A stretch of DNA of 64,000 bases from Rhodoferax sp. WC2427. GTDB lineage: Bacteria > Pseudomonadota > Gammaproteobacteria > Burkholderiales > Burkholderiaceae_C. Below, piece by piece: positions 7,466 through 50,239 of the stretch. The stretch's first letter is position 1. Each line of letters opens with the position of its first letter. The stretch is taken from contig NZ_CP162006.1 in the NCBI RefSeq assembly GCF_040822085.1, forward strand, positions 496,001 through 560,000, read 5' to 3'. A program made the position numbers and the translations under genes. Below the pieces are notes generated by a model. The model worked only from the letters and a program-made list of their open reading frames with translations. It did no database searches and was not told where the DNA came from.

Positions 7466-8428
7466 TCATGGTTTGGGTACACCCCGTGCGGGCGTTGGAA
7501 CGGCAGTCTGCTCGGGTTCCGGCGCTGTTTCATTTGTTACAGAAGATGCTATTGTGGCATTGCCCATCAGCCGCGCCTCCGCTTCTCTGGTCATGATCGT
7601 AATGCTGATGCGCCGATTCACCGGGGCGACCGGTGTTTTGGGGTCCAGCAGGCTGCTGGCTGCCAGGCCCACCACGCGGGCCATTTTTTCATCGGGCATG
7701 CCGGCTGCCACCAATTCGCGGCGCGAAGCATTGGCCCGGTCCGCGGATAGTTCCCAGTTGCTGTAGCCCCGCTCACCATTGCCATAGGGCGTGCTGTCGG
7801 TATGCCCAGCCAGGCTGATGCGGTTTTCGACCCCGTTCAGGGCCTCGCCGATCGCCCGCAAAATATCGCGCATATAGGGTTTGACCAGGGCGCTGCCGCT
7901 GTCGAACATGGGGCGGTTTTGCTCGTCCACAATCTGGATCTGCAATCCGTCGGGGGTGGTTTCCATGCGGATCTGCGAGCGGAATTCAGCGAGTTTCGGG
8001 TTGTTGGTGATCAATGCGTCGATCTTGTCGCGCAAATTCTTGATGCGCGAAGCATCCTGCTTGGCAATTTCGGCCTTGGCTGCGGCTTCGTCCATCTTCT
8101 TTTTGACCGGGTCATCGCCCGTGCCGCGGGTGCCTTGCCCGGCCGTCTTGGTCAGGTCGGAGCCGCCGCCCGACAAAATGCTGTTACTCGCCCCCGCGCC
8201 GCTGCCGCCTTGCATGGCCACCTTGAGCGGGGTGTTGAAGAAATCGGACAGGCCTTTTTTGTCGCCTTCCGATGTGGAGCCCAGCAGCCACATCAGCAAA
8301 AAGAAGGCCATCATGGCCGTTACAAAGTCGGCGTAGGCGATCTTCCAGGCACCACCATGCACGGCGTGGCCACCTTTTTTGATCTTCTTGACGATGATCG
8401 GTTGGAGCTTTTTGCCTTCCGTCGCCAT
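7466..8428 (-). CDS. motB: Flagellar motor stator protein MotB
   Basis: MotB forms the proton-driven stator with MotA and anchors it to peptidoglycan. The 320 residues have one membrane helix near residues 33-50 (YADFVTAMMAFFLLMWLL), with Asp34 in the position of the essential proton-binding Asp32 of E. coli. The C-terminal OmpA-like peptidoglycan-binding domain includes LAGHTDSTPYG and the SADRANASRR segment. It lies 17 bases after motA on the same strand. Confidence 0.95.
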   Translation of the reverse strand: MATEGKKLQPIIVKKIKKGGHAVHGGAWKIAYADFVTAMMAFFLLMWLLGSTSEGDKKGLSDFFNTPLKVAMQGGSGAGASNSILSGGGSDLTKTAGQGTRGTGDDPVKKKMDEAAAKAEIAKQDASRIKNLRDKIDALITNNPKLAEFRSQIRMETTPDGLQIQIVDEQNRPMFDSGSALVKPYMRDILRAIGEALNGVENRISLAGHTDSTPYGNGERGYSNWELSADRANASRRELVAAGMPDEKMARVVGLAASSLLDPKTPVAPVNRRISITIMTREAEARLMGNATIASSVTNETAPEPEQTAVPTPARGVPKP

Positions 8429-8445
8429 ATCAGTCTGCTAAAGAA

Positions 8446-9306
8446 TTACTTCTTGCCACGCACATGGCCTTCCAGTTCTGCAAAGCTGGGTCGGTCGCCC
8501 GAGAACAGCACCTTGCGGCCAAACTCGATGGCGGTGGCCGGGTTGTAGCCCTGCATGCTGGCCAGGAGCGTGGTTTTCATGCACTGCAGTTCCTTGGCAC
8601 TGTCTTCGGTTTTTTGCTCCAGCAGGCCGCCCAGCGGCTCCACCACGCCATAGGCCAGCAAAATCCCCAGGAAGGTTCCCACCAGCGCCGACGCAATCAT
8701 GCCGCCCAGCACCGATGGTGGCTGTCCCACAGAGCCCATGGTGTTCACCACCCCCAACACCGCAGCCACAATCCCGAAGGCGGGCAGCGCGCCGGCCAGC
8801 CGGGCGATGGCCGCAATCGGGGCGTGGGCTTCAGCGTGGTGGGTGTCGATCTCGCTGTCCATCAGCGACTCGATTTCGTGGGCGTTCAGGTTGCCCGACA
8901 CCATCATGCGCAGATAGTCGGTCATGAACTCCACCACATGGTGGTCGCTGCCCACCGTGGCGTACTTTTTGAAGATTTCGGAGTTCTCGGGCGACTCCAC
9001 GTCGCCTTCGATCGCCATCAGGCCTTCCTTGCGGGCTTTTTGCAGAATGTCATACATCAGCGACAGCAACTCCATGTAGCGCGTCTTGGTGTATTTGGAG
9101 CCTTTGAGCGCCTGCGGCAGCAGGGCCATGGTGGCTTTGAGCACTTTGGGCTGGTTGTTCACCGCAAACGCGCCCAGCGCACCGCCGAAGATGGTGATCA
9201 GCTCAAACGGCAGGGCGTGCAAGATCACTGAAATGTTGCCACCGTGGAAGATGTAAACACCAAAGATGCAACCCATGGAGACGGCATAGCCGATGAGAAC
9301 AATCAT
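8446..9306 (-). CDS. motA: Flagellar motor stator protein MotA
   Basis: MotA is the four-helix stator subunit that conducts protons and pushes on FliG. The 286 residues include N-terminal helices (MIVLIGYAVSMGCIFGVYIF), a large cytoplasmic loop from about 60 to 160, and two C-terminal helices with the conserved Pro-rich PAFGIVAAVLGVV segment. Length and order match the family. It begins the motAB pair and is divergent from the glycosyltransferase gene, with about 200 bases between them. Confidence 0.96.
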   Translation of the reverse strand: MIVLIGYAVSMGCIFGVYIFHGGNISVILHALPFELITIFGGALGAFAVNNQPKVLKATMALLPQALKGSKYTKTRYMELLSLMYDILQKARKEGLMAIEGDVESPENSEIFKKYATVGSDHHVVEFMTDYLRMMVSGNLNAHEIESLMDSEIDTHHAEAHAPIAAIARLAGALPAFGIVAAVLGVVNTMGSVGQPPSVLGGMIASALVGTFLGILLAYGVVEPLGGLLEQKTEDSAKELQCMKTTLLASMQGYNPATAIEFGRKVLFSGDRPSFAELEGHVRGKK

Positions 9307-9509: not shown

Positions 9510-12500
9510 ATGATCGACGCAAGTACCGAGACATCCAGCCCGCAGCACACCGACACCACGACCGTGGACAGCCTGCTGGAGCAGGCTATCGAGGCCCACC
9601 GGGGCCTGGACTTCGTCGCAGCGGAAACGGACTACCGTGCTCTACTGTCCCGTGAGCCTGAACATGCCGATGCGAGTCACAACCTGGGCGTGTTGCTGGC
9701 GGTGCAATTGCTGAGGCCCCAGGAGGCCTTGCCTTATTTTGAGGCGGCGCTGAATGCTGATGCCGAGCGGCCCCAGTTTTGGTTCAGTTACATCGACTGC
9801 CTGGTGCGCTGCGAGCACTTCGACCTGGCCCGCCAGGTCTTGCCGTTGGCCCAGGGCTTGTCGGTGGGCATGGTCAATGCGCTGACCGAGCGGATGCCGC
9901 GGCTGGCCGACACATCCACCCCTGTCGCTATCCCCGAGCCGGAGCGGGAACCCAACCAGACGGAAAAGCAGGCCCTGGTGAGCCTCTTTCAGCAAAAAAA
10001 ATACGAGCAAGGCGAAGCGCACGCCCGCAAGCTGGTGCAGCGCTACCCCGAAAGCGGCTTCGCCTGGAAGGCGCTGGGCACCATGCTGCAGCCGCAAGGA
10101 AAGAAAGAAGAGGCCCTGGAAGCCAAGAAAAGGGCGGTGCAATTGCTGCCTGACGACGCTGAGGGTCTGTGTAACCTGGGGCGCTCGTACTTTGAGCTGG
10201 GCCTGACGCTGCAGGCTATTGAGGCCCTGCGGACCTGCGTAGCCACCAAGCCAGACTATGCCGAGGCCTTGAACAATTTAGGTTTGGCGTTGAATGCCAA
10301 TGGCCAGGTGGATGAAGCGCGCCAATGTTTTGAGCGTGCGATAAAGATCAACCCCCAATTTGCAGAGGCACTCAACAACCTCAGCGGCTTGTTCACATTG
10401 AATGGGCAGATCGACGAAGCTATTGCCGTCTTGCAAAAAGCCGTTGCAGCCAAGGCCGATTACAAAATTGCTTTTGACAATTTGCTGTTCGTGGTGAATT
10501 ACCACCCCGACCGCAGTGCCGAGGAGATATTCAAAAGTTACAGCGAGTACGAACGGCGCTTTGGTGCGCCAGCACGTGCCGAGTGGGTGCCTCACCAAAA
10601 CCCGCGCAGCACCCAGCGGCGCTTGAAAGTGGGCTACGTGTCCCCCGACTTCAGGGGCCATGCCTGCACCTATTTCATGGAGCCCTTGCTGGCCCGGCAT
10701 GACCGACAGGTGGTGGAGCTCTACGCCTACGCAGAGTTGACGCATGAAGATGCCGTCACCCAGCGGTACAAGCAGTATGTTGAGCACTGGGTGCCCACCC
10801 GGGGCATGAGCGACGTGGCCCTGGCGCAGCGCATCCGGGCCGATGGCATCGACATCCTGGTCGATCTGGCGGGTCACACTGCGGGCAACCGCCTGGGCGC
10901 GTTTGCCCGCAAACCGGCGCCGGTGTCGATGAGCTGGATGGGATTTGGCTATACCACCGGCCTGCGGGCCATCGACTACTACCTGACCGATGCCGTGTGC
11001 ACGCCCGCGGGCAGCGATCACCTGTTCTCGGAAGAACCATGGCGCCTGGACGGCACCTGCTTTACGGCCTACCGCCCCGGCCCCGGCATGGGCGAGGTCA
11101 ATGCCTTGCCCGCCGCGCAGCGCGGCTATGTCACGCTGGGCACTTTGACCCGGGGCGTACGCATCAACCACCACAGCCTGCGCGTGTGGGCCAGCATCTT
11201 GTTGCGGCTGCCCACGGCCCATTTGGTGATCGACAGCCGGTCGTTCCTGGACGCCACGGTGCAGGCCGACGCGGTGCAGAAGTTTGCCGCCTACGGCATC
11301 GCTGCCGAGCGCCTGCACATCGGCTTTAACAGCCCACCGTGGGACGTGCTGCGCGGCATTGACCTGGGGCTGGACTGCTTTCCGCACAACAGCGGCACCA
11401 CCCTGTTTGAAACCCTGTACATGGGCATCCCGTATGTGACCTTGGCGGGCCGCCCCAGCGTGGGCCGCATTGGCAGCAGCATCCTGCACAGCCTGGGCCA
11501 CCCGGAGTGGATTGCCCACAGCGAAGACGACTACATCGAGAAGGTCGTCGCCCTGGCCTGTGATCTGCCCGCCCTGGCCCGGCACCGCGCCAGCCTGCGT
11601 GCCGAAATGCAGGCCAGTGTGCTGATGGACGAGAGCGGCTTTACCCGCAAGGTCGAGCAGGCCTATGCCCAGATGTTTGCCCGCTGGGCCAGCACCGCCC
11701 CGCAAGCCACCCAAAAGGCGTCTCCCGTGGCGCGCCGCAGCCAGCCCAGCGCCGATGAAATGAAGTTGGTTTCCTCGCTTTTCCAATCCCGCGACTTTGT
11801 GGCGGGTGAAGCCGCCGCCCGCGAGTTGGTGCGCTTGTACCCGCAGCACGGTTTTGGCTGGAAGGCTCTGGGCATCATGCTGCACCCTTTGGGTCGTGCC
11901 GAAGAGTCGTTGCAGGCCAAGAAGCAAGCCGCGCACCTGATGCCGCAGGATGCCGAGGCCGCCTGCAACCTGGGCCAGTCCCTGCAAGACATGGGGCAAT
12001 ACGCGCTGGCCGAAACGGTCTTGCAGCGGGCCTTGGCGCTCAAGCCCGACTACGCCGAGGCCTACAACAACCTGGCCATCACCTACCAAAAAATGGGGCG
12101 CATCCCCGAATCGGAGGCCAACTTCCAGGCAGCTTTGGCTCTCAAACCCCAAAGCATCTGGATTTTTGACAACCTGTTGTTCACGCTGAACTACCACCCC
12201 GACCACAGTGCCGAGGAGATATTTAAGAGCTACTGCGAGTACGAGCGCCGATTTGGCGATCCCTACCGGAGCGCCTGGAAGCCGCACACCAACCAGCGCA
12301 CCCCGGGGCGGCGCTTGAAGGTGGGCTATGTGTCGCCCGATTTTCGCAGCCACGCGTGCAGCTACTTTCTGGAGCCCTTGCTGGCCCGGCATGACCCGGC
12401 GCTGGTCGAGGTCACCGCCTATGCCGACCTGAGCATAGAAGATGCGGCGAGCCAGCGCTACAAGGGCTACGTGTCCCATTGGGTGCCCACCCGGGGCATG

Positions 12501-15500
12501 AGCGACGCGGCCCTGGCGCAGCGCATTCGGGCCGATGGCATCGACATCCTGGTTGATCTGGCAGGTCACAGCACAGGCAACCGCCTGGGCGCATTTGCCC
12601 GCAAACCGGCGCCCGTGTCGATCAGCTGGATGGGCTACGGCTACACCACCGGCCTGCGTGCCATTGACTACTACCTGACCGATGCCGTGTGCACGCCCGC
12701 GGGCAGCGAGCACCTGTTCTCGGAAGAGCCATGGCGCCTGGACGGCACCTGCTTTACGGCCTACCGTCCCGGCCCCGGCATGGGCGAGGTCAATGCCTTG
12801 CCCGCCGCGCAGCGCGGCTATGTCACGCTGGGCACTTTGACCCGGGGCGTGCGCATCAACCACCACAGCCTGCGCGTGTGGGCCAGCATCTTGTTGCGGC
12901 TGCCCACGGCCCATTTGGTGATCGACAGCCGGTCGTTCCTGGACGCCACGGTGCAGGCCGACGCGGTGCAGAAGTTTGCCGCCTACGGCATCGCTGCCGA
13001 GCGCCTGCACATCGGCTTTAACAGCCCACCGTGGGACGTGCTGCGCGGCATCGACCTGGGGCTGGACTGCTTTCCGCACAACAGCGGCACCACCCTGTTT
13101 GAAACCCTGTACATGGGCATCCCGTATGTGACCTTGGCGGGCCGCCCCAGCGTGGGCCGCATTGGCAGCAGCATCCTGCACAGCCTGGGCCACCCGGAGT
13201 GGATTGCCCACAGCGAAGACGACTACATCGAGAAGGTTGTCGCCCTGGCCTGTGATCTGCCCGCCCTGGCCCGGCACCGCGCCAGCCTGCGGGCCGAAAT
13301 GCAGGCCAGTGTGCTGATGGACGAGAGCGGCTTTACCCGCAAGGTCGAGCAGGCCTATGCCCAGATGTTTGCCCGCTGGGCCCACCAGACCGCGGTGGAT
13401 GCGGTAGAAGCCACGCCGAGCGTGGACGAGATGAATGCCCTGGTGCGTCTGTTCCAGGACCAGGCGTTTGCCCAGGGCGAGGCGGCAGCGCAGGCCCTGG
13501 TGGCGCGCTACCCGCGCCATGGCTACAGCTGGAAGCTGCTGGGTTCCTTTTTGCAAAAGCAGGGCCATGTGGAGGCCGCTTTGCAGGCCAAGCAACGTGC
13601 CGTGCAGTTGCTGCCCGACGACACCGAGGCCTTGTTCAATCTGGCGCTGGCCTATGAGCAGCAGGGCCTGATGGCCCAGGCCGAGCCCTGCTACCGCGCC
13701 GTGATTGCCCAGCACCCGGACGATGCCGACGCCCACCACAATCTGGGCAACACCCTGGTCGGACAGGGACAGCAAGCGCAGGCCATCCCCTGTTACCGCG
13801 AAGCCCTGCGCTTGCAACCGCAGCTGGAGAGTGCCTACGACAGCCTCGGCGGGCTCTTGCAAGACGCGGGCTTCCTGGTGGAGGCCGAGTCGGTGTGGCG
13901 CCGGTTTTTGCAGGTCAAGCCCGGTCATATGCAGGCGGTCATACAACTGGGGCGCAATCTGCAACGGCAAGGCCGCCGTGCCGAAGCAGAGGCCTGCATG
14001 CGCAGTGCCGTGGACGTGAAGGAAGACGACCTTGCCGATTACTTCACCCGCGCCAACCTGCTGGGCGAGCTGGGCCTGTACGCTGATGCCGAGGCCGATT
14101 TCCGTCGGGCGCTGGACATCAACCCCAAAGCCCCTGAAATCTGGTGCAATCTGGCCGCCAATCTCAAAGAACAAGGGCGGCTGACCGAGGCCGAAGCCTG
14201 CGCGCAACGGGCCTTGGACATCCAGCCTGAACTGGTGGTTGCGGTGACCAACCATGCCGTGATCTTGATGACCCAGGGGCGGTTGATCGAGGCGGAGGCC
14301 GGTTTCCGCAAGGCTTTGGAGCTGATGCCGGACAACCAAGGCATTTTCTCCAACATGCTGTTTGCGCTGAACTACGACGCAGACAAAAGCGCCGAGGAGA
14401 TCTTCGAGGCGTACCGTGAATTTGACCGACGGTTTTGCAGCGTCCACCGGGACACCTGGACCCCCCATACCAACGTCCCGGCGGCTGGGCGGCGGCTCAA
14501 GGTGGGCTACGTGTCGCCAGACTTCAAGAACCACTCGTGCATCTTCTTTATGGAGCCCCTGCTGTCACAGCACGACGCCCAAGTGGTCGAGCTGTACGCT
14601 TACGCCGACCTCACCCAGGAAGACCACGCCACCAAGCGCTACAAGGAGTACTTTGAGCACTGGGTGCCGATACGCGGCATGTCGGACGTGGCCTTGGCGC
14701 AGCGTATCCGGGCCGATGGCATTGATATCTTGGTGGACATGGCAGGCCACACCTCGGGCAACCGCTTGTGCCTGTTTGCCCGCAAGCCTGCCCCGGTGTC
14801 CATGAGCTGGATGGGCTATGGCTACACCACCGGCCTGCAAGCCATTGACTACTACCTGACCGATGCCATCAGCGCGCCACAGGGCAGCGAACACCTGTTT
14901 GCGGAAACCCCCTGGCCCCTGCCCGATACCTGTTTTACCGCGTACCGCCCTGGCACATCGATGGGCGAGGTGAACGCCTTGCCCGCGCTGCAGCGGGGTT
15001 ATGTGACGCTGGGCACGCTCACGCGGGGCGTGCGCATCAACTACCGCACCATCCGCGTGTGGGTGCAGATCTTGCAGCGCCTGCCCACGGCGCGCATCGT
15101 GATCGACAGCAGTTCCTTCAAAGACCACGACGTGGCGCAGGCCCTGCTGCTGCAATTCACGGCGCAGGGCATTGCGCAGGAGCGTGTGTACGTCGGCTAC
15201 AACAGCCCCCCGTGGGACGTGCTGCGCGGTATCGACATCGGGCTGGACTGCTTTCCGCACAACTCCGGCACCACGCTGGTGGAGACCCTGTACATGGGCA
15301 TTCCCTATGCCACCTTGGCGGGCCGGCCCAGCGTGGGGCGCATCGGAAGCTCCATCTTGCACGCCGTAGGCCACCCAGAGTGGATTGCCCAGACCGAAGA
15401 CGAATACGTCGACATCGTGGTCGCCCTGGCCCATGACCTGCCCGCCCTGGCCGCGCACCGCGCCAATTTGCGGGGTGAGATGCAGGCCAGCACGCTGATG

Positions 15501-15578
15501 GACGAGCCCGGCTTTGCCCGCAAGGTCGAGACCGCCTACGCACAGATGTTCCAACGCTGGGAGGAGTCGCAAACATGA
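9510..15578 (+). CDS. Three-module TPR-GT41 (SPINDLY/OGT-like) glycosyltransferase
   Basis: A 2022-residue cytoplasmic protein (no signal peptide or membrane segment) made of three TPR arrays, each followed by a GT41 domain of the O-GlcNAc-transferase/SPINDLY type. The catalytic domains begin near residues 370, 934 and 1661 ([10 protein letters not shown]), and each carries an HNSGTTL-[FV]-ETLYMGIP donor-site segment. The TPRs before modules 1 and 2 are short; those before module 3 are longer (about residues 1300-1640). GT41 enzymes glycosylate Ser/Thr using the TPRs to bind protein. The position before sugar-nucleotide genes and 5 kb before flagellin suggests flagellin glycosylation. Modules 1 and 2 are almost identical at DNA level over about 690 bases. 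The start has only a weak ribosome site; the stop overlaps rfbF (ATGA). Donor and target are inferred. Confidence 0.85.
11001..11690 (+). repeat. Internal duplicated segment, copy 1 (GT41 module 1)
   Basis: The distal half of the first GT41 domain matches bases 12693-13382 at an offset of 1692 bases (564 codons). I count about seven differences by eye, nearly all at third codon positions (one changes Asp to Glu). Upstream parts of the same two domains are clearly more divergent. Confidence 0.85.
12693..13382 (+). repeat. Internal duplicated segment, copy 2 (GT41 module 2)
   Basis: Partner of 11001-11690 inside the same gene. The offset is a multiple of three, so recombination between copies would delete or add one complete TPR-GT41 module in frame. 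The third module (14490-15578) is not part of this near-identity. Confidence 0.85.
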
Positions 15579-16345
15579 AAGCCGTCATTTTGGCCGGGGG
15601 CCTGGGCACCCGCATCTCGGAGGAAACCCACCTCAAACCCAAGCCGATGATCGAGATCGGTGGCAAGCCCATCCTGTGGCACATCCTGAAGATGTACTCC
15701 GCCCACGGCGTGAACGACTTCGTGATCTGCTGCGGCTACAAGGGCTACATCATCAAGGAATACTTCGCCAACTATTTCCTGCACATGTCTGACGTGACCT
15801 TCGACATGGCCAACAACCGCATGGAAGTGCACCACAAGCACGCCGAGCCCTGGAAGGTGACCCTGGTGGACACCGGCGACGACTCCATGACCGGCGGCCG
15901 CCTCAAGCGGGTGGCCGACTACCTGCGGGGTGAAGAAGCCTTTTGCTTCACCTACGGGGACGGCGTGTCGGATGTGGATATTGGTGCATCCATCGCCTTC
16001 CACCACCGGCACGGCAAGCTGGCCACCGTCACCGCGGTGCAGCCCCCGGGCCGCTATGGCGCGTTGAACATGCGCGGTGCGGTGGTGCAGGGCTTCACCG
16101 AGAAGCCGCGTGGCGATGGCGGCTTGATCAACGGGGGCTTTTTTGTGCTCTCGCCCCAGGTGCTGGGCCGCATTGCCGACGACCACACCAGCTGGGAGCA
16201 AGAGCCGCTGACGGGCCTGGCCGCCGAAGGCCAGCTCATGGCTTTTGAACACACCGGCTTCTGGCAACCCATGGACACGCTGCGTGAGAAAAACCTGCTC
16301 GAAGAGCTGTGGCTGTCGGGCAAAGCCCCCTGGAAAACATGGTGA
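15575..16345 (+). CDS. rfbF: Glucose-1-phosphate cytidylyltransferase
   Basis: This enzyme makes CDP-glucose from CTP and glucose-1-phosphate, the first step to CDP-linked deoxysugars. The 256-residue length is normal. The nucleotidyltransferase signature [19 protein letters not shown] is at the N terminus, followed by [14 protein letters not shown], and [11 protein letters not shown] is in the middle. Its ATG overlaps the stop of the GT41 gene and its stop overlaps the start region of the CDP-glucose dehydratase gene, giving a tightly coupled operon. Also called ddhA in O-antigen loci. Confidence 0.93.
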
Positions 16346-17394
16346 TGTGGTCTGACACCCCGGTTTTTCTCACCGGCCACACCGGCTTCAAAGGCGGCTG
16401 GCTGGCCCTGTGGCTGCACGCGCTGGGGGCCAAGGTGCACGGCTACGCGCTGGACCCGAACACCACCCCCAACCTGTTTGGCGCGGCGCGTGTGGCCGAG
16501 GTGCTGGCCAGCGACGCGCGCGCCGATCTGGCCGACCGCACCGCGTTGCAGGCCGCGTTGACCGCCGCCCAGCCCCGAGTCGTATTCCACCTGGCCGCCC
16601 AGCCCTTGGTGCGCGCCAGCTATGCCGACCCGCTGGGCACCCTCGCCACCAACGTCATGGGCACCGCCCACCTGCTGGAGGCCGTGCGCCAGGTGCCCAG
16701 CGTGCGCGCCGTGGTGGTGGTGACGACCGACAAGGTCTACGACAACCGCGAATGGGTCTACCCCTACCGCGAAAGCGATGCACTGGGCGGGCACGACCCC
16801 TACAGCGCCAGCAAGGGCGCGGCGGAAATCGTGGCCGCCAGCTACCGCGCCAGCTTCTTCCACACCCCCGGCGCGGCGCAGATCGCCACCGCCCGCGCGG
16901 GCAACGTCATCGGCGGCGGCGACTGGGCGGCCGACCGGCTGGTGCCGGATTGTTTGAAGGCCTTTGCGCATGGCCAGCCGGTGCAGCTGCGCTTTCCCGG
17001 TGCGGTACGGCCCTGGCAGCACGTTTTGGAGCCACTGTCGGGCTATTTGCGCCTGGCCCAGGCCCTGCAGGACGGCCCCGCTGCCGCCAGCGCCTGGAAC
17101 TTCGGCCCCGATGCCCGCGGCGAGGCTACCGTGGGCCAGGTCGCCCAGCGGCTGGCCGTGCTGTGGGGGCAGGGCGCACGCGTCGAATTTCCCGAGGGTG
17201 GCAGCCACCCGCACGAGGCCGGCCAGTTGCGCCTGGACATCACGCGCGCCCGCGCCGCGCTGGGCTGGCAACCGCGCTGGAGCCTGGAGGAAGCCCTGGC
17301 CCACACGGTGGCCTGGCAGCGTGCCTGGCGGGCCGGGGACGACATGGCGGTGGCCTGTCGGGACCAGATAGCCGCATTTGGTGGCGTGGAGTAA
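16339..17394 (+). CDS. rfbG: CDP-glucose 4,6-dehydratase
   Basis: A short-chain dehydrogenase that turns CDP-glucose into CDP-4-keto-6-deoxyglucose. The NAD-binding motif [10 protein letters not shown] is near residue 10, a TTDKVYDN segment follows, and the catalytic Tyr-x3-Lys is in [10 protein letters not shown] start it at ATG 16339; ATG 16345, which overlaps the rfbF stop as TGATG, is equally plausible, and a GTG at 16309 would add ten unlikely residues. No rfbH-type 3-dehydrase is nearby, so a 3,6-dideoxysugar by the classical route is not supported. Confidence 0.9.
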
Positions 17395-17397
17395 ATG

Positions 17398-17443
17398 CTA
17401 TGTTATTAGTAGCTTCTCACGCTCTATCCATAAGCGTTGGAGG
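17398..17443. repeat. Palindromic intergenic repeat, copy C (degenerate)
   Basis: The gap after rfbG holds AGCTTCTCACGCT, an ATCCAT centre and AAGCGTTGGAGG, a degraded member of the repeat family seen at 101-186. Its right end supplies the GGAGG ribosome site of the next gene. Confidence 0.5.
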
Positions 17444-17451
17444 TCGTTTTG

Positions 17452-18033
17452 ATGCTTGAAGTCGCCACACCGCGTTTTCATTTCCAGCCCACGCCCCTGG
17501 CCGGGTTGTGGCTGGCGCAGCGCCAGCCCATCCGCGACGCGCGGGGTTTTTTTGCCCGCTTCTACTGCGCGCAGGAGTTTGCCGCCATCGGCGTGGTGCA
17601 GCCCTTGGCGCAGATCAACCATTCGTTCTCCCACCAGCCCGGCACGCTGCGCGGCCTGCACTTCCAGCACCCGCCGCACGCCGAAACCAAGGTGGTCAGC
17701 TGCCTGAGCGGCCGCATTTTTGACGTGGCGGTGGATTTGCGCAGCGGCTCACCTACCTTTTTGCAGTGGTTTGGCGTGGAGCTGTCGGCCCAGGCGCAAA
17801 ACAGCCTGGTGATCCCTCCCGGCTTCGCCCATGGTTTCCAGACGCTGGAGCCTGACAGCGAAATTCTCTACCTCGTCACCACCGCCTACAGCGCGGAATT
17901 CGAGGACGGCCTGCACCCGCTCGACCCGGCGCTGGCCATCGACTGGCCCCTGCCAGTGGCCGAAATATCGGCCCGCGATGCCCAGCGCCCGCTGCTGGAT
18001 GTGGCCACCTACGCGGGTGTTCCCCATGTCTGA
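17452..18033 (+). CDS. dTDP-4-dehydrorhamnose 3,5-epimerase family protein
   Basis: A cupin-fold sugar epimerase of the RfbC type, 193 residues. Family landmarks are RDARGFFAR, the QINHSFS and GTLRGLHFQ segments (catalytic His region), KVVSCLSGRIFDVAVDLR and IPPGFAHGF. Next to CDP-glucose dehydratase it probably epimerises CDP-4-keto-6-deoxyglucose rather than the dTDP sugar, as in CDP-tyvelose or CDP-6-deoxysugar loci; this is inferred from context. The ATG at 17452 is chosen because GGAGG lies 8 bases upstream; an upstream TTG at 17437 is less likely. Confidence 0.85.
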   Translation: MLEVATPRFHFQPTPLAGLWLAQRQPIRDARGFFARFYCAQEFAAIGVVQPLAQINHSFSHQPGTLRGLHFQHPPHAETKVVSCLSGRIFDVAVDLRSGSPTFLQWFGVELSAQAQNSLVIPPGFAHGFQTLEPDSEILYLVTTAYSAEFEDGLHPLDPALAIDWPLPVAEISARDAQRPLLDVATYAGVPHV

Positions 18034-18865
18034 AGCCCCCTCCATCACCGTGCTGGGCGCGGGGGGCTTTATCGGCCAGCACTTGGTGGCGCACTTGCAG
18101 CGGGCGGGCCACGCCTGCTATGCCCCGGTGCGGGGCGACCCGGCGGTGTTCACCCGGCCGCTGGGGCATGTGGTCTACGCCATTGGCCTCACGGCCGACT
18201 TTCGCAGCCGCCCGCTGGACACGGTGGAGGCGCATGTGTGCTTTTTGCGGCAACTCCTGCAACAGGCGCAGTTCACGTCGCTGACCTACCTGTCGAGCAC
18301 CCGCGTTTACGCCGGTGCCACCGATACGCGCGAATCGGCCCGCCTGCACGTCAACCCCAACGATGCCAGCGACCTGTACAACCTGTCCAAGCTGATGGGC
18401 GAGTCGCTGTGCCTGCACGGCGGCCATGCGGGCATGAAGGTGGCGCGTCTGTCCAACATCGTCGGCCTGCGGCCCGACCCCGACATTTTTATCGACCAGC
18501 TGCTGGCCGAAGGCTGCCGCACCGGCCATGTGCACCTGCACACCGCGCTGGCGTCCTGCAAAGATTACCTGTCCATTGGCGACGCGGTGGAGCTGTTGAC
18601 CCGCATCGCCCTCAGCCCCGACACCGGCATCTTCAACCTGGCCAGCGGCGAGGGCGTGGCCAACCAGCAGGTGGTTGAAGCCCTGCAACGCCACATGGGC
18701 TTTACCGTGACGGTGGCGCCGGAGGCCCCGGTGTGGGACTTTCAGCCCATCGACACCCACAAGACCCGCGCTCGCTTTGGCCTGGTGCCCCAGCCATTTG
18801 CCGATTACTTTCCCCATTTCCTCCAGCAATACCGACAACACAGGAGTCTGCATGCCCTACCTTGA
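18026..18865 (+). CDS. NAD-dependent sugar epimerase/dehydratase
   Basis: A 279-residue extended short-chain dehydrogenase. The Rossmann motif GAGGFIGQHL lies near residue 11, a YLSSTRVYAG strand follows, and the catalytic pair is in YNLSKLMGE. It most likely reduces or epimerises the 4-keto sugar made by the upstream dehydratase, finishing a CDP-6-deoxyhexose; the exact reaction cannot be read from sequence. It overlaps the epimerase gene by 8 bases and the next gene by 14. Confidence 0.85.
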   Translation: MSEAPSITVLGAGGFIGQHLVAHLQRAGHACYAPVRGDPAVFTRPLGHVVYAIGLTADFRSRPLDTVEAHVCFLRQLLQQAQFTSLTYLSSTRVYAGATDTRESARLHVNPNDASDLYNLSKLMGESLCLHGGHAGMKVARLSNIVGLRPDPDIFIDQLLAEGCRTGHVHLHTALASCKDYLSIGDAVELLTRIALSPDTGIFNLASGEGVANQQVVEALQRHMGFTVTVAPEAPVWDFQPIDTHKTRARFGLVPQPFADYFPHFLQQYRQHRSLHALP

Positions 18866-19607
18866 AACCACCCCCTCGGCCCACCCCGATTACCAGCTGG
18901 AAAAGCAGCAGCGCATTGCCGCCTTTGCCGACGATGCCGAGTTTCGGGCGCTCTCCAACCAATGGCGTGCCATGGCCCTGGAGCGCAAGTACATGAACAA
19001 CTTCTCCTGGCTGGGCCGTCCGCTGATCCAGCTGCCGATGGACGCGATGGCGCTGCAAGAGATCATCTGGGCCGTGAAGCCCGACCTCATCATTGAAACC
19101 GGCGTGGCCCACGGCGGCTCGGTGGTGCTGTCGGCCTCGATGCTGGAGCTGCTGGGCCACGGCGAGGTGGTGGGTATCGACATCGACATCCGCCCGCACA
19201 ACCGCCAGGCCATTGCCGCCCACCCCATGGGCCATCGCATTTCGCTGATCGAAGGCTCCAGCGTCGCCCCCGAGGTGGTGGCCCAGGTCAAGGCGCTGGC
19301 GGCGGGCAAAAAGAAGGTGCTGGTGTGCCTGGACTCCAACCACACCCACGCGCACGTGCTGGCCGAGCTGAACGCCTATGCCGAGCTGGTCAGCGTGGGC
19401 AGCTACTGCATCGTGTTTGATACGTTTGTGGAAGACATGCCTGACGACTACGTGTGGACCGACCGCCCCTGGGGCAAGGGCGACAACCCCAAGACGGCCG
19501 TGTGGGAGTGGATGAAGCACAACCCCGGCTTTGTGATCGACAAGTCGGTGGAAGACCGTTTGCTGGTCACCTCTGCGCCCGACGGGTTTTTGCAACGCAT
19601 CGCCTGA
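18852..19607 (+). CDS. CmcI-like (cephalosporin hydroxylase family) protein
   Basis: A 251-residue member of the CmcI family, a SAM-methyltransferase-like fold that also includes sugar O-methyltransferases of glycan loci. The glycine-rich motif is ETGVAHGGSVVLSA near residue 80, followed by VVGIDIDIRPHNR and the VCLDSNHTHAHV metal-site-like segment. A ribosome site (AGGAG) precedes ATG 18852. In this cluster an O-methylation of the deoxysugar is more likely than antibiotic hydroxylation; this is inferred from the neighbours. Confidence 0.8.
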   Translation: MPYLETTPSAHPDYQLEKQQRIAAFADDAEFRALSNQWRAMALERKYMNNFSWLGRPLIQLPMDAMALQEIIWAVKPDLIIETGVAHGGSVVLSASMLELLGHGEVVGIDIDIRPHNRQAIAAHPMGHRISLIEGSSVAPEVVAQVKALAAGKKKVLVCLDSNHTHAHVLAELNAYAELVSVGSYCIVFDTFVEDMPDDYVWTDRPWGKGDNPKTAVWEWMKHNPGFVIDKSVEDRLLVTSAPDGFLQRIA

Positions 19608-19616: not shown

Positions 19617-20363
19617 ATGAACTTTCTCTCCAGCGTGTTTTTTGGCATCCAGGCCGAGGGCTTTGTGCAGGGCGTGCAAAAGACCATCGACAGCATCCCG
19701 CACAAAGACGGTATCTTCACCGGCGACAACCTCATCACCTTCGGCCGCAACCTGGGCTTCTTCCAGGATGAAAAATTCATGGCGGCGTGGCGTGGCAATG
19801 TGGAGACGCCGGTCGAAGAAGCCATCGTCTGGCGCCTGGCCGTGCTGGCCTGGGCCGCCAAAAGCGTGATCGCCCGCAAGATACCGGGCGACTTTGTGGA
19901 ATGCGCCTGCTACAAGGGCATTACCGCCCGCATCTTGTGCGAGTACACCGACTTTGCCCAGCGGCCCGACCGCAGCTACTACCTCTACGACCTGTTCGAG
20001 CACGACGACAGCATGCTGCACCATTCCATGGCCGAGCACAGCACCACCCTGTTTGACAAGGTGACCGCGCGCTTTGCCGACCACCCCAATGTGCAGGTGG
20101 TGAAGGGCAGCATCCCCGAGGTGCTGCACCAGGTCAGCCCGGAAAAAGTGGCCTTCCTGCACATCGACCTGAACAACGCCCCGGCGGAGATCGGCGCGCT
20201 GGAGGTTTTGTTCGACCGCCTGTCGCCAGGGGGCATTTTGGTGCTGGACGACTATGGCTGGCTGGCCTACCGGGCCCAAAAGCTGGCCGAAGACCCCTGG
20301 CTGGCCGAGCGCGGCTACCAGGTGCTGGAGCTGCCTACGGGGCAGGGGCTGGTGTTCAAGTGA
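19617..20363 (+). CDS. TylF/MycF-like sugar O-methyltransferase
   Basis: A 248-residue class I methyltransferase resembling the TylF/MycF group, which methylates sugar hydroxyls with SAM and a metal ion. GDFVECACYKGITARIL is the SAM-binding segment. FLHIDLNNAP and ILVLDDYGW carry the conserved acidic residues expected to hold the metal. It follows the CmcI-like gene by 9 bases and overlaps the acyltransferase start (GTGA). The product probably carries one or two O-methyl groups; this is inferred. Confidence 0.8.
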   Translation: MNFLSSVFFGIQAEGFVQGVQKTIDSIPHKDGIFTGDNLITFGRNLGFFQDEKFMAAWRGNVETPVEEAIVWRLAVLAWAAKSVIARKIPGDFVECACYKGITARILCEYTDFAQRPDRSYYLYDLFEHDDSMLHHSMAEHSTTLFDKVTARFADHPNVQVVKGSIPEVLHQVSPEKVAFLHIDLNNAPAEIGALEVLFDRLSPGGILVLDDYGWLAYRAQKLAEDPWLAERGYQVLELPTGQGLVFK

Positions 20364-20848
20364 TCACCATCCACCCCCAAGCCCAGGTATCGCACCTGGC
20401 CGATATCGAAGACTCGGTGCGCGGCACCCGCATCGACATTGGTGCCCACACCGTGGTGGACAGCTTCGTCAAATTCAAGCCTGCAGGCGGCACTGGCGAC
20501 GTGGTGGTGGGCGAGTGGTGTGTCATCAATAGCGGTTGCGTGCTCTACACCGGCAACGGCATCCATATCGGCAACCAGGTTGCGATCGCCGCCAACTGCA
20601 CCTTTGCCCCGGTCAACCACGCCTACCAGGACCGCCACCGTCCCATCCGCGAACAGGGCTTCATGCCCAGCAAGGGCGGCATCGTGGTGGAAGACGACGT
20701 GTGGATCGGTGCCAACGTTGTGCTGCTGGACGGCTGCATCCTGCGGCGGGGCTGCGTGGTGGCGGCGGGCTCCATCGTGCGGGGCGAGGTCGCGGCCTAC
20801 TCGGTGGTGGCCGGACAGCCGCTGCGCGTGGTGGGCATGCGGCAGTAG
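20360..20848 (+). CDS. Hexapeptide-repeat acyltransferase
   Basis: A 162-residue left-handed beta-helix acyltransferase (LbH, CysE/LacA/WbbJ type). Repeats with the [LIV]-G-x4 pattern run through the protein (IDIGAHTVV, IHIGNQVAIA, VWIGANVVL). FAPVNHAYQD holds the likely catalytic His, and SIVRGEVAAYSVVAGQPLRVVG is the usual C-terminal coil. It starts at GTG 20360, overlapping the methyltransferase stop. It probably acetylates the sugar or a glycan hydroxyl, and it is the last gene of the cluster. Confidence 0.85.
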   Translation: MITIHPQAQVSHLADIEDSVRGTRIDIGAHTVVDSFVKFKPAGGTGDVVVGEWCVINSGCVLYTGNGIHIGNQVAIAANCTFAPVNHAYQDRHRPIREQGFMPSKGGIVVEDDVWIGANVVLLDGCILRRGCVVAAGSIVRGEVAAYSVVAGQPLRVVGMRQ

Positions 20849-20932: not shown

Positions 20933-20943
20933 CCTTCTTTGGT

Positions 20944-20979: not shown

Positions 20980-20988
20980 GGGGGAGGC

Positions 20989-22218
20989 TTACTGCTGCAG
21001 CAGCGACAACACACCCTGTGGCAGCTTGTTGGCCTGGGCCACCATGGCTGTACCGGCCTGCTGCAGAATTTGGGTGCGTGACAGGTTGGCCGTTTCCTGG
21101 GCAAAGTCGGCATCCACGATCCGGCCCTTGGCGGCGGCCAGGTTTTCTATCTGGATGCTGATGTTGCTCACAGCGCTTTCAAAGCGGCTTTGCAGCGCAC
21201 CCAGGTTGGCGCGGGCCGAGTTCACCTGGTCGATGGCCGCGTCGATCTTCTTCAGGGCCACCCAGGCATTGCGCTGGGTGTCCACGGTCAGGGTGTCGAT
21301 GCCCAGCGCGTCGGACGTGGTGTTGACGGCATTGATCGTGGAGCCCATCGCCGCAATCGAGGTCAGGCCGGTGGTCGCGGCGGTAAAGCCGGTGAGCGCC
21401 ACCACGGCGGCATCGCCGTTGGAGTCCAGCTTGGCCGACATCAGGTCGATGCGGTACGTTTGGTCCAGGTTTTGTGACAAGAAGGCGGTCACGCCGGTGT
21501 CGGTGGATTTGCGGTTAAGCGCCTCTACCACCTGGCCCATGCGCTCCGAGCCTGAGCTGGCGGCCGCCAGAGGGCCCAGGTCGAAGGAAAACGTGCCGGC
21601 CCCGGTGACCGATATCGACAAAGTCCCCGCGCTCAACGCGGTCAGTGAATTCACCGACGAGGCCGCCACCTGGCTGGCCGACTGGTCATAGCCGTAGGCG
21701 ATGTCGGCCAAGCCGACGGCGGTGGAGTTGGTCAGTGCACCCAGCGATGCCACGTCGCCCGAGTTGGCCCCTACCTGGAACACCGCCCCGGCAAACGAGC
21801 CGTCCAGAATCTTTCGACCGTTGAACGAGGTCTGCTTGGCGACCCGGTCGATTTCATCGGTCAGCTGGCCGACCTCGGCCTGCAAGGCCTGGCGGTCCGC
21901 GGCGCTGTTGGTGGCATTGCTGGCCTGTACCGCCAGTTCCCGCATACGTTGCAGCATGTCGCCCACCTTGCCCAACGCACCTTCAGCCGTTTGCGCCAAG
22001 GAAATGCCATCGTTGGCATTGCGGGCCCCCACCGAGAGGCCGCGCAACTGGGTCGTCATGCGTTCGGCGATGGCCAGGCCAGCGGCGTCGTCCTTGGCGC
22101 TGTTCACGCGCAGACCAGAGGACAGGCGCTGCATGGATGTGGCCAGCCCCATCGCACTGGTTGCCAGATTGCGCTGGGCGTTGAGAGAATTGACGTTGGT
22201 ATTGATCGTGGCAGCCAT
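20989..22218 (-). CDS. fliC: Flagellin 1
   Basis: Filament subunit of 409 residues. The D0/D1 ends are conserved (TINTNVNSLNAQRNL and LSSGLRVNSAKDDAAGLAI at the N end, QETANLSRTQILQQAGTAMV at the C end). The Ser/Thr/Ala-rich centre is surface-exposed in filaments and would be the glycan acceptor. AAGGAG lies just before the ATG. It is divergent from flagellin 2. A possible sigma-28 promoter on the minus strand is at 22335-22362. The two flagellins are of nearly equal length and clearly paralogous. Confidence 0.96.
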   Translation of the reverse strand: MAATINTNVNSLNAQRNLATSAMGLATSMQRLSSGLRVNSAKDDAAGLAIAERMTTQLRGLSVGARNANDGISLAQTAEGALGKVGDMLQRMRELAVQASNATNSAADRQALQAEVGQLTDEIDRVAKQTSFNGRKILDGSFAGAVFQVGANSGDVASLGALTNSTAVGLADIAYGYDQSASQVAASSVNSLTALSAGTLSISVTGAGTFSFDLGPLAAASSGSERMGQVVEALNRKSTDTGVTAFLSQNLDQTYRIDLMSAKLDSNGDAAVVALTGFTAATTGLTSIAAMGSTINAVNTTSDALGIDTLTVDTQRNAWVALKKIDAAIDQVNSARANLGALQSRFESAVSNISIQIENLAAAKGRIVDADFAQETANLSRTQILQQAGTAMVAQANKLPQGVLSLLQQ

Positions 22219-22459: not shown

Positions 22460-23686
22460 ATGACCACCACTATCAATACCAACGTAAATTCGCTGAATGC
22501 GCAGCGCAACCTGATGGCTTCTGGCGGCTCGCTCGCCACCTCCATGCAGCGCCTGTCCTCCGGCCTGCGCGTGAACAGCGCCAAGGACGACGCCGCTGGC
22601 CTGGCTATTGCCGAGCGCTTTTCCAGCCAGATCAAGGGCTTGACGGTTGGTGCACGTAACGCCAATGACGGTATTTCGCTGGCGCAAACGGCTGAAGGTG
22701 CGTTGGGCAAGGTGGGCGACATGCTGCAACGTATGCGTGAACTGGCCGTGCAGTCCAGCAACGCCACCAACAGCGCTGCTGACCGCAAGGCTCTGCAATC
22801 CGAAGTGAGCCAGCTCACCGACGAAGTGGACCGTATCGCCAAGCAAACTTCGTTCAACGGCAAAAAGGTGCTGGACGGCACGTTTGCTGGTGCGGTGTTC
22901 CAGGTGGGTGCGAACTCTGGCGAAAACATCACGGTGGGTGGCCTGACCAATTCCACCGCTGCCGGGTTGTCCAAGTCCGCCTATTCCTACGACCAGTCGA
23001 ACAGCTCGATCACGGCTTCTTCTGTCAATTCGCTGACCGCCCTGTCCGCAGGTACCCTGACGATCGCCGTAACAGGCGCCGGGACGACCACCATCAAGCT
23101 GGATGCCATTGCCGCCGCCTCGTCGGGTTCGGAGCGCATGGGCCAGGTGGTGGAAGCGATCAACCGCAAAACTGCCGATACCGGTGTGACCGCCTTCTTG
23201 TCGCAAAACGCAGACCAAAGCTACCGCATCGACATCATGAATGAAAACTTGACCACCGCAGGCGACTCCGCCGTGGTCAGTTTCACGGGCTTTACCGCGG
23301 CTACCACGGGCTTGGTCTTGGCGGGCGATCTGGCTTCGAAGATCGATGCCACCAACACCACCAGCGACGCACTGGGCATTGACACGCTGAGCATTGATAC
23401 CCAGCGTAACGCCTGGGTGGCCATCAAGAAGCTGGACGCGGCCATCAACCAGGTCAACTCGGCCCGCGCCCAACTGGGTGCTCTGCAAAGCCGGTTTGAA
23501 AGTGCCACCGGCAATATCGCCATCAACGTGGAGAATCTGTCTGCTTCCCGCGGCCGGATTGTGGATGCCGACTTTGCGCAAGAAACTGCCAATCTGTCGC
23601 GTACGCAGATCCTGCAACAGGCCGGTACCGCCATGGTGGCCCAGGCCAACAAGCTGCCACAAAGCGTGCTGTCGCTGCTGCAATAA
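22460..23686 (+). CDS. fliC: Flagellin 2
   Basis: Filament subunit of 408 residues, a paralogue of flagellin 1 in the opposite direction. The N-terminal D0/D1 region (TTTINTNVNSLNAQRN) and C-terminal region (LSRTQILQQAGTAMVAQANK) are strongly conserved. The centre differs mainly in scattered substitutions. I start it at ATG 22460, preceded by TTAGGAGC; an in-frame GTG at 22304 upstream would add 52 residues across the promoter and is not real. It has its own sigma-28 promoter and a strong terminator. The Ser/Thr-rich centre could be a target of the GT41 protein. Confidence 0.96.
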   Translation: MTTTINTNVNSLNAQRNLMASGGSLATSMQRLSSGLRVNSAKDDAAGLAIAERFSSQIKGLTVGARNANDGISLAQTAEGALGKVGDMLQRMRELAVQSSNATNSAADRKALQSEVSQLTDEVDRIAKQTSFNGKKVLDGTFAGAVFQVGANSGENITVGGLTNSTAAGLSKSAYSYDQSNSSITASSVNSLTALSAGTLTIAVTGAGTTTIKLDAIAAASSGSERMGQVVEAINRKTADTGVTAFLSQNADQSYRIDIMNENLTTAGDSAVVSFTGFTAATTGLVLAGDLASKIDATNTTSDALGIDTLSIDTQRNAWVAIKKLDAAINQVNSARAQLGALQSRFESATGNIAINVENLSASRGRIVDADFAQETANLSRTQILQQAGTAMVAQANKLPQSVLSLLQ

Positions 23687-23751: not shown

Positions 23752-23797
23752 GCAAAGGCGGATAAAGGAACCCCCTTTATCCGCCGTTTTGCCTTTT
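23752..23797 (+). terminator. Intrinsic terminator after flagellin 2
   Basis: GGCGGATAAAGG (23757-23768), loop AACCC, CCTTTATCCGCC (23774-23785), followed by GTTTTGCCTTTT. The 12-base GC-rich stem with a T-rich tail lies about 70 bases after the stop and separates flagellin from fliD. Confidence 0.85.
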
Positions 23798-23867
23798 GGA
23801 ATGCGGATACAAACACGGGTATTCGCAGCCACCGCCACGGTGGTACGTTATTGTTCTGGAGAACATC

Positions 23868-25346
23868 ATGGGTATTTCATCTACCGGTATTGGCAGTGGT
23901 TTGAATGTCGAGAACATCATCACCAAGCTGGTCGCACTGGAAACCCAGCCCCTGACCTCGCTGCAGCTCAAAGCGACGATCATCCAGACCAAGATTTCCG
24001 ATTACTCGCAGATCAAATCGCTGGTATCCACCCTGACAGACACCGCGTCCAAGCTGTCGCTCGACAGCGGCTGGAACACGGTGGCCGTCTCCTCTTCCAA
24101 CAGCGCGGCGGTGTCTGCCACCGTGACCGGCATTGCCAGCGCCACCAGTTTCAGTGTGGGCGTGTCGCAATTGGCCAAGGCGCAGTCCAGCGTCTCGGAT
24201 GCCGTCACGGCCGGTGCCGCGGTGGGCTCGGCGGGCACCTTGACCCTGCAACTCGGCACCTGGGGCCCCGCCCGGGCCAACGCCACCGGTAGCCTGTTTA
24301 CACCCGGCAGCGCGGCCAGTGTGAACGTCACCGTGGCCGCCAGTGACACCCTGGCGCAGATTGCCGCCAAGATCAACGACGCGGGCTCCGGCGTGGTGGC
24401 CACCGTGCTGACCGATGCCTCGGGTGACCGCCTCATGCTGCGCTCCGCCAGCACCGGCGAGGCGCAGGGGTTCCGGGTGCAGGCCAACGATACCGGGGAT
24501 GGCAACAACACCAACGACAGCGGCCTCTCGGCCCTGGCCTTCGATCTGGACCTGGACCCCGGCAACACTGCGGCGCCCACCGTGGCTGCCTATGGCATGG
24601 GTGCCAACACCTACCAGGCCGGGCAAAACGCCAAGGCCACTATCAACGGAATTGCCGTTACCTCGGCCAACAACAGCTTCAAAGACGTGGTGGCGGGCTT
24701 GACCATTACCGCGTCCGCGGTGACCACCAGCGACGCAGAGCTCATCACCACCAATGACAAAGCCGCGCTGACCAAAAATATCCAGGCCTTTGTAGATGCC
24801 TACAACGCCGTCAACAAGTACCTGGCCGATGCCACGTCCTACGACGACGCCACCAAGAAATCGGGCGACCTGCAGGGTGACTCCACGGCCATCGGCCTGC
24901 GCAATTCCTTGCGTTCCCTGCTGGGCACCGGGGTGGTGGGGGGCAGCTACAAGCGCCTGTCGGACGTGGGTCTGAGCGTGGCACGCGACGGCAGTGTGAC
25001 GGTGGATGCCACCAAGCTGGGCACGGCCCTGGACAACCCTGCCAATGTGAAGATTCTGTTTGCCCAGAAAAACACCGATGCCAGCACCAACGGCATTGCC
25101 CGCAAGGTCAAGACTTTCGCCGACGGCTTACTGGCTTTCAGCGGGGGGCTGAACAACAAGGCGGACTCCTTGGCTGCGGAAACCAAGCGCAACATGGCCA
25201 ACCAGGACAAGGTGACCGCCCGGGCTGCGGCCGTGGAAAAGCGCCTGCGTACCACCTACACCGCGCTGGACACCAAGATGGCCGGGCTGACCGCCTTGAG
25301 CACCTACATCACCGACCAGGTGGCGGCATGGAACAACAACAAGTAG
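23868..25346 (+). CDS. fliD: Flagellar filament cap protein FliD
   Basis: FliD (hook-associated protein 2) forms the cap under which flagellin folds. The 492-residue protein starts MGISSTGIGSGLNVENIITKL(V), the usual FliD N terminus, and ends in a coiled D0 region with MAGLTALSTYITDQVAAWNNN. ATG 23868 is chosen from a GGAG site 9 bases upstream and the family N terminus; the frame is open 24 codons further upstream. fliS and fliT, its filament and cap chaperones, follow. Confidence 0.95.
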   Translation: MGISSTGIGSGLNVENIITKLVALETQPLTSLQLKATIIQTKISDYSQIKSLVSTLTDTASKLSLDSGWNTVAVSSSNSAAVSATVTGIASATSFSVGVSQLAKAQSSVSDAVTAGAAVGSAGTLTLQLGTWGPARANATGSLFTPGSAASVNVTVAASDTLAQIAAKINDAGSGVVATVLTDASGDRLMLRSASTGEAQGFRVQANDTGDGNNTNDSGLSALAFDLDLDPGNTAAPTVAAYGMGANTYQAGQNAKATINGIAVTSANNSFKDVVAGLTITASAVTTSDAELITTNDKAALTKNIQAFVDAYNAVNKYLADATSYDDATKKSGDLQGDSTAIGLRNSLRSLLGTGVVGGSYKRLSDVGLSVARDGSVTVDATKLGTALDNPANVKILFAQKNTDASTNGIARKVKTFADGLLAFSGGLNNKADSLAAETKRNMANQDKVTARAAAVEKRLRTTYTALDTKMAGLTALSTYITDQVAAWNNNK

Positions 25347-25394
25347 GCGGTGGTGCGGACCACACAGCTTTGCGATATTTCAACCATTGAGGGC

Positions 25395-25421
25395 TTGAGT
25401 TTTTGAGTGCACTGCCGATAA
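25395..25421 (+). promoter_or_regulatory. Sigma-28 promoter of fliS-fliT
   Basis: TTGAGTTT (25395-25402, 6/8 to TAAAGTTT), 11 bases, then a perfect GCCGATAA (25414-25421). Transcription should begin near 25428, only about 12 bases before the first fliS ATG. Confidence 0.75.
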
Positions 25422-25439
25422 CTAATACATCAAGTTCAA

Positions 25440-25865: not shown

Positions 25866-25893
25866 GCCCCACCCACCTTGCCGGACCCAGACC

Positions 25894-48702: not shown

Positions 48703-50239
<1,537 letters not shown>

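Follow-up and report, generated by a model that had tools for sequence, protein, structure and literature searches.

A three-headed TPR-GT41 protein in a flagellin island of Rhodoferax sp. WC2427, a possible multivalent flagellin glycosyltransferase with a CDP-6-deoxyhexose donor

The stretch of DNA analyzed here comprises 64,000 nucleotides of the Rhodoferax sp. WC2427 genome (NZ_CP162006.1, positions 496,001 to 560,000; hereafter the window) and contains a gene for a protein of 2022 amino acids, in which three arrays of tetratricopeptide repeats (TPR) alternate with three catalytic domains of glycosyltransferase family GT41 (heads). Judged from the sequence, all three heads are complete and have a common donor-position signature, the gene overlaps a cassette for a CDP-linked 6-deoxysugar, and two flagellin genes lie in the same island. 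Our preferred reading, in which we place about even confidence, is that the protein is a cytoplasmic, multivalent flagellin O-glycosyltransferase that transfers one CDP-6-deoxyhexose to several sites. Concerning the role of the individual heads, transfer to multiple sites is our first choice and extension of a glycan chain the second.

The reading frame extends from ATG to TGA without any internal stop. Pfam Glyco_transf_41 (PF13844) matched the encoded protein (E-value 1.7e-128) in six stretches, corresponding to N and C lobe three times, and a profile constructed from its own and related heads delimited three complete heads (Table 1). TPR models matched all stretches between and before the heads; the unit numbers given in Table 1 were counted by eye on the protein sequence. 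A block LVxLFQ...GEA...WKxLG... is present in every array, further units vary between arrays, and array 1 has an additional leading group. These domain searches, which a first-pass annotation of the window had proposed, bear out its description of three TPR arrays, each followed by a GT41 domain, in one frame. An assembly artefact or a chance frame was considered and rejected on the grounds of the intact frame, purifying selection and multi-headed single frames in other members of the genus. The window genome is a single contig of 4.78 Mb, and the same three heads are found in one frame in genome G004 of the same genus. Among eight genomes of the genus, including its own, four encode three heads in one frame (besides these two, G006 and G007) and two encode four (G001 and G005), while the gene is cut off by contig breaks in the remaining two. 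An artefact is thus unlikely. An antisense frame at 10278-14534 (1418 aa) resembles the by-products common opposite G+C-rich genes. Between the window genome (G000) and G004, dN/dS was 0.04-0.15 in each of nine segments of the gene, and in comparisons with G006 and G007 it was 0.09-0.37 at high dS, showing that all nine segments are under purifying selection.

Arabidopsis SPINDLY (SPY) was the nearest relative of head 1 with a solved structure (7y4i, E 1.4e-75; 8dtf, 5.8e-75), and a bacterial protein (5djs, 6.2e-73) was nearly as close. Human OGT (3pe3, 1.3e-35) and Xanthomonas XcOGT (2jlb, 5.1e-28), which also combine TPR with GT41, were further sequence relatives with a single head each. SPY aligned over the whole of head 1, whereas human OGT aligned in two pieces. 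Similarities to SPY comprise the leading TPR array and the conservation of SPY H495 (the acceptor-side His), T748 and E752 in the window heads. Membership in GT41 is indicated by PF13844 scores over the cut-off on both GT-B lobes, the TPR array before each head and the His at the position of H495. In contrast to the single head of SPY, the window protein has three, and SPY K665, K689, A731 and Y744 are replaced by Arg, Asp, Val and His. The exchange of the phosphate-binding lysine K665, which is essential in SPY, affects all three heads and counts against our preferred reading, although it is conservative and Arg occupied this position in 369 of 405 heads of the protein set described below. 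We keep the name GT41 on the basis of the profile and do not regard the K665 lysine as defining the family.

The roles of the donor-binding residues of SPY were described in PMC10027727 and PMC9715652. In SPY, Lys689 reads guanine, whereas human OGT has Leu866 at this position and reads uracil with Arg904 (PMC10027727). The GDP-fucose readers of SPY (K689, A731, Y744) and the UDP-GlcNAc signature of human OGT (L866, R904, C917; PMC10027727) both correspond to Asp, Val and His in the window heads, so that by alignment the signature is neither of the GDP-fucose nor of the UDP-GlcNAc type. The Asp at the position of Lys689 is present in all three heads, and on chemical grounds an acidic side chain could accept the 4-amino group of cytosine.

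Linkage to rfbF, the gene for glucose-1-phosphate cytidylyltransferase, provided a second indication of a CDP-activated donor. The start codon of rfbF overlaps the stop codon of the GT41 gene in the window, and rfbF together with the adjacent rfbG defines the route from CDP-glucose to CDP-4-keto-6-deoxyglucose. In a first sample, consisting of stretches of at least 9 kb around heads with Lys or Arg at position 665, rfbF was found in 14 of 18 loci with Asp or Glu at position 689 but in only 1 of 95 others (Fisher 1.6e-13, relatedness ignored). In a second sample of 20 stretches, both Asp loci, one of them in another class, and none of 18 others had rfbF; these 18 non-acid loci included L201, a stretch under 9 kb. 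The third sample contained one head from each of 18 loci, some on short contigs (G1225, 4 kb; G1081, 6 kb). Here, rfbF lay within 6 kb of all seven heads with Asp (3), Glu (2) or Asn (2), four times within 132 bp, and was found for none of 11 heads with Lys, Gln, Ile, Ala or Gly. Pooled over the three samples and two loci of a further search (L040 and L038, see below), linkage to rfbF was observed in 21 of 26 cases for Asp/Glu, 2 of 3 for Asn and 1 of 124 for other residues. The stretches had been chosen from top hits and not at random, and the donor hypothesis arose in the first part of sample 1, whereas the remainder of this sample and samples 2 and 3 came later. Short stretches were dropped from sample 1 (L080, L116, L131, L132, L150, L152 and L176), among them L080, which is of the Asp type without rfbF on a 3.4-kb contig; L043, an Asp-type locus likewise on a 3.4-kb contig, was outside the scored stretches. 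Heads with other residues at position 665 (L104, L111, L168 and L169) were excluded as badly aligned or degenerate, and two of these (L168 and L169) have Asp in the 689 column without rfbF. L079 was scored as Asp with rfbF, and its second GT41 is of the Met type. A further search yielded six loci, of which L035, L036, L037 and L039 were pieces of G002/G003-type genomes already counted. Taken together, the Asp at the position of Lys689 and the linkage of Asp/Glu heads to rfbF indicate that the donor is probably a CDP-6-deoxyhexose.

Several observations weigh against this conclusion. The labels change only two or three times on the trees, and hence only one to three independent contrasts are left (1 on supported branches; 3 with a sign test p of 0.25-1), far from significance. 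When changes in rfbF were taken as starting point, the residue followed in two of five pairs and was unchanged in three. With relatedness taken into account, about three lineages support the signal, which is then not significant. Two loci from the further search, L040 (Asp, at a contig edge) and L038 (Asn), lack rfbF, and L086 has an Asp head, yet no rfbF over the family cut-off was found in its genome, G081. Met-type GT41 genes are located near rfbF in L076 and L079. Three single-head Asp paralogues that stand alone (L074, L075 and L082) have no rfbF in their stretches; their genomes do have it in the main island. L074 and L075 adjoin genes for methyl-accepting chemotaxis proteins, where they may have a second substrate or be relics. 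Presence of rfbF anywhere in the genome did not predict the Asp type, as G012, G038, G126, G161 and G186, which contain other GT41 types, have it elsewhere with scores over the cut-off; only local linkage was predictive. The RR-type heads of L191-L195, in the same clade, carry Tyr, His or Phe where others have Asp, and no rfbF was found in their stretches, which possibly reflects a further donor switch.

The first-pass annotation had suggested comparing the donor pockets of the three modules. Aligned to SPY, ten C-lobe donor positions were identical in all three heads, with Arg for N662, Arg for K665, Asp for K689, Pro for H728, Val for A731, His for Y744, Gly for T747, and Thr, Thr and Glu at T748, T749 and E752; the numbering was counted by hand on the alignment and agrees with the residues named in the papers. 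Out of 24 positions compared in all, two differed, both in the N lobe: heads 1 to 3 have Ala, Ala and Ser for SPY S496 and Thr, Ser and Thr for T572. These differences count against our preferred reading, the first of them at a residue, S496, that touches fucose and acceptor in SPY according to the structural reports cited above. Over 1.2 kb, the DNA of heads 1 and 2 is 91.3% identical, and head 3 is 76-78% identical to either. The N (acceptor) lobes are 71-83% identical between heads, with 83% protein identity for heads 1 and 2. The C lobes of heads 1 and 2 showed a synonymous divergence of 0.033 in G000 and 0.007 in G004, where an identical run of 609 nt was found, compared to 0.26 (head 1) and 0.23 (head 2) for the same lobes between the two genomes. 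This pattern indicates gene conversion in each lineage after the split. The N lobes of heads 1 and 2 are less homogenised than the C lobes, and near-identity of C lobes was not seen in G006 and G007 (synonymous divergence 0.37-0.61). The uniform donor signature and gene conversion speak for copies with a common donor rather than for three different steps. Transfer to multiple sites would nevertheless be allowed by the unlike TPR arrays and N lobes of the heads. Of the earlier proposal that different modules handle different sites or steps, the part about sites therefore stands as a possibility, and the part about steps is weakened.

Many-headed GT41 proteins are widespread, and the one in the window is not unique. 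The first-pass annotation had stated that known GT41 proteins have one catalytic domain, with no characterised example of three. Among the query and the best 120 of 1244 hits, 119 of 121 proteins carry two (18), three (38), four (60) or five (3) heads, and the other two are fragments with one full head. As a length filter had removed single-head proteins from this set, it gives no measure of the frequency of multi-head proteins. Comamonadaceae, Herbaspirillum, Methylobacter, Desulfocapsa, Hyphomicrobium and Phenylobacterium were source names among the matches listed. Examples such as P0002 from Comamonadaceae OS-1 (2022 aa, 94% identity), P0010 from Rhodoferax koreense, P0026 from Pseudorhodoferax and P0027 from Variovorax have the same architecture with three or four heads and an identical or nearly identical signature, without any essential difference that we could see. 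By sequence, the window protein is thus an ordinary member of this set. The residue class at the position of K689 was the same across all heads in 114 of 119 multi-head proteins when Asp and Asn were pooled (1000 shuffles: mean 88, maximum 93) and in 84 of 119 without pooling; at position 665, agreement was found in 115 of 119. Mixed classes at position 689 occurred in P0045, P0047, P0062, P0068 and P0097. The heads of P0045, P0047 and P0062 have unlike donor signatures, alternating between NKK and RKG types in P0062, which makes these three proteins candidates for chains with two donors.

Single-head relatives of the same type are common as well, and a search with module 3 added 117 new proteins, of which 106 had one head and 11 had two. 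Among 140 GT41 frames with a Lys/Arg head (L071-L189 and the window), 14 have at least two such heads. Since these 14 span at least four signature types, heads seem to have been multiplied repeatedly. Adjacent, unfused GT41 frames in L089, beside flagellin, and in L092 suggest tandem duplication followed by in-frame fusion as a route. As some loci with two flagellins manage with a single-head Asp/Glu enzyme (L086, L105 and L109), head number is not simply tied to flagellin number, which counts against our preferred reading. In the loci compared, no simple relation of head number to flagellin number or size was found. The window's genome contains a further, distant single-head GT41 gene of a different type, HKV..HTTD (L090, genome positions 1740174-1741253), which lies outside the flagellar island.

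According to our preferred reading, three TPR-GT41 enzymes would have been fused into one chain by tandem duplication and in-frame fusion, with gene conversion keeping heads 1 and 2 alike in their donor lobes. RfbF, RfbG, the RmlC-type epimerase and the SDR enzyme would produce a CDP-linked 6-deoxyhexose, and two methyltransferases and an acyltransferase would presumably decorate the sugar. Each TPR array may bind flagellin, by analogy to the TPR domain of FlmG, and prior to export every head would transfer the same sugar to Ser/Thr residues of FliC's central domain. The 4-amino group of cytosine would be accepted by the acidic residue that replaces SPINDLY Lys689 (Asp575 in head 1, equivalent residues in the others), and Arg551 would take over from the phosphate-binding Lys665. 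The unlike TPR arrays and N lobes could serve several acceptor sites, or speed up the reaction, at each encounter with a flagellin. The wider proposal, that a branch of GT41 uses CDP-linked deoxysugars, reads cytosine with an acidic residue or Asn, and forms chains of two to five heads with one donor and several acceptor sites, the head number varying by species, is one we hold tentatively, at slightly less than even confidence.

As an alternative use of one and the same CDP-sugar, a single head might link it to Ser/Thr and the others might extend it to a di- or trisaccharide. GT41 enzymes are known for adding single sugars. The common donor-position signature and the differing N lobes would suit an extending enzyme, but every head has kept its TPR array and the acceptor-side His, and head number ranges from one to four across otherwise similar Asp-type islands, so that we consider extension unlikely. 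The heads could also divide the labour by transferring different sugars or performing different steps. Such proteins may exist, as the five multi-head proteins with mixed base-reading classes suggest, and in the window the sugar-touching S496 position itself varies; the ten matching C-lobe positions, homogenisation of the donor lobes of heads 1 and 2 and a single sugar-nucleotide pathway in the island nevertheless make this highly improbable.

It is also conceivable that only one or two heads are catalytic and the rest form a scaffold, comparable to the partner subunit in the SPY dimer. SPY acts as a dimer (PMC9715652), P0031 and P0044 each have one head with Cys at the position of the essential lysine/arginine, and SPY T748 corresponds to Ala in head 2 of G007, a change that was described to lower SPY activity strongly. 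In the window protein, G004 and G006, however, the pocket residues are kept in all three heads, and dN/dS is similarly low across heads, which renders idle heads quite unlikely. Finally, the acceptor might be a chemotaxis receptor or surface polysaccharide, or the donor a dTDP-sugar. The close single-head paralogues L074 and L075 beside methyl-accepting chemotaxis genes in two relatives would fit such a reading, as would the Asp head of L086 beside RmlC-type and aminotransferase genes, without rfbF. We give it little credence, as the multi-head gene itself is linked to the flagellar island and overlaps rfbF at its stop codon.

OGT and SPY are textbook single-head enzymes, and we know of no characterised GT41 enzyme for which CDP-linked deoxysugars are the donor. 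The titles and abstract beginnings listed, from a library without most subscription journals, contained no description of multi-head GT41 proteins or of CDP donors for GT41. Pseudaminic acid is activated as a CMP-sugar, which likewise contains a cytidine nucleotide. In Caulobacter crescentus, FlmG binds flagellins with its TPR domain and modifies them with pseudaminic acid (PMC7591256). Compared by description, FlmG resembles the window protein as a soluble combination of TPR and GT-B domains but differs in having 596 aa with one domain of each kind instead of three. GT41/SPINDLY enzymes were also described from flagellin islands of Enterobacteriaceae together with sugar, methyltransferase and acyltransferase genes (PMC4875605). 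Most of these island enzymes contain methyltransferase domains, whereas the window encodes its methyltransferases separately and has a triplicated GT41 head; multi-head enzymes are not mentioned in the relevant passages of that paper. If our reading is correct, GT41 offers a natural series of one- to five-headed enzymes in which the effect of head number on site occupancy or processivity in O-glycosylation can be tested, and a one-residue donor rule for uncharacterised members (Lys, GDP; Asp/Glu and perhaps Asn, CDP). It would also be a source of enzymes that put CDP-deoxysugars onto proteins. The many-headed protein itself is real; greater value would attach to the donor rule and the series of head numbers, should they be confirmed.

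Table 1. Coordinates of the three-headed GT41 gene, its domains and neighbouring genes in the window
Feature	Position (nt)	Strand	Evidence and remarks
Three-headed TPR-GT41 protein, 2022 aa	9510..15578	+	intact frame; PF13844 429.7 bits, cut-off 25
TPR array 1, residues 1-325	9510..10484	+	TPR models; about 7 units in two groups
GT41 head 1, residues 326-729	10485..11696	+	profile, alignment; signature R R D P V H G T T E
TPR array 2, residues 730-889	11697..12176	+	TPR models; about 4 units
GT41 head 2, residues 890-1293	12177..13388	+	C-lobe DNA 98% identical to that of head 1
TPR array 3, residues 1294-1616	13389..14357	+	TPR models; about 9 units
GT41 head 3, residues 1617-2021	14358..15572	+	donor-position signature as head 1
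motB, motA (stator genes, divergent from GT41 gene)	7466..9306	-	left neighbours of the GT41 gene
rfbF, glucose-1-phosphate cytidylyltransferase	15575..16345	+	TIGR02623 475.7 bits, cut-off 300; 1tzf 452.9 bits
rfbG, CDP-glucose 4,6-dehydratase	16309..17394 (frame; true start probably later)	+	TIGR02622 476.3 bits, cut-off 278
RmlC-type 4-keto-6-deoxyhexose 3(,5)-epimerase	17437..18033	+	PF00908; TIGR01221 156.2, cut-off 155.75
SDR family epimerase/4-ketoreductase	18032..18865 (open frame from 17831, domain start near 18040)	+	PF01370; PDB matches weak only
Sugar O-methyltransferase, RMNT/CmcI family	18777..19607 (frame; true start probably later)	+	PF04989 308 bits
O-methyltransferase, TylF-like	19617..20363	+	PF05711 53.5 bits, cut-off 23
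Hexapeptide acyltransferase	20360..20848	+	PF00132
Flagellin A, 409 aa, probable acceptor	20989..22218	-	NF006467 403 bits, below cut-off 443
Flagellin B, 408 aa, probable acceptor	22460..23686 (open frame from 22304)	+	PF00669/PF00700
fliD, fliS, fliT	23796..26193	+	to the right of flagellin B

The surroundings of the gene correspond to a flagellin glycosylation island, in that sugar-nucleotide and glycosyltransferase genes lie beside flagellin genes (Table 1). The location between stator and flagellin genes and the downstream deoxysugar, methylation and acylation genes had been recognized correctly in the first-pass annotation, and its proposal of flagellin as target is supported by gene linkage. 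Flagellar genes adjoin all eight multi-head loci of the clade that were retrieved with flanks (the window, L071, L072, L073, L077, L078, L081 and L083); for a distant ninth locus, L110, none were found in the fetched stretch. In relatives, the order motA, GT41, rfbF, rfbG, rmlC-like gene, methyltransferase and two fliC genes on minus and plus strand is entire or partial, depending on the contig. The two flagellins are 79% identical, their genes face away from each other, and their central domains are rich in Ser/Thr (44 of 174 and 47 of 173 residues). The plus-strand frames 20939-21691 and 21701-22234 are artefacts, being antisense to the gene for flagellin A. Basal-body genes follow beyond fliD, fliS and fliT, and on the left side motA, motB, a CheY-like regulator, cheZ, flhB, flhA, an SRP54-type GTPase (probably flhF) and a sigma-70 family factor (probably fliA) are encoded on the minus strand. 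The sigma-28 promoter pattern TAAAGN(13-17)GCCGATA had no exact match within the window, so that this search gave no support for control by FliA. Apart from the island, the window contains two complete rRNA operons (48437-54165 and 54172-59900), each with 16S, two tRNAs, 23S and 5S, arranged head to tail as an exact tandem repeat of 5729 bp.

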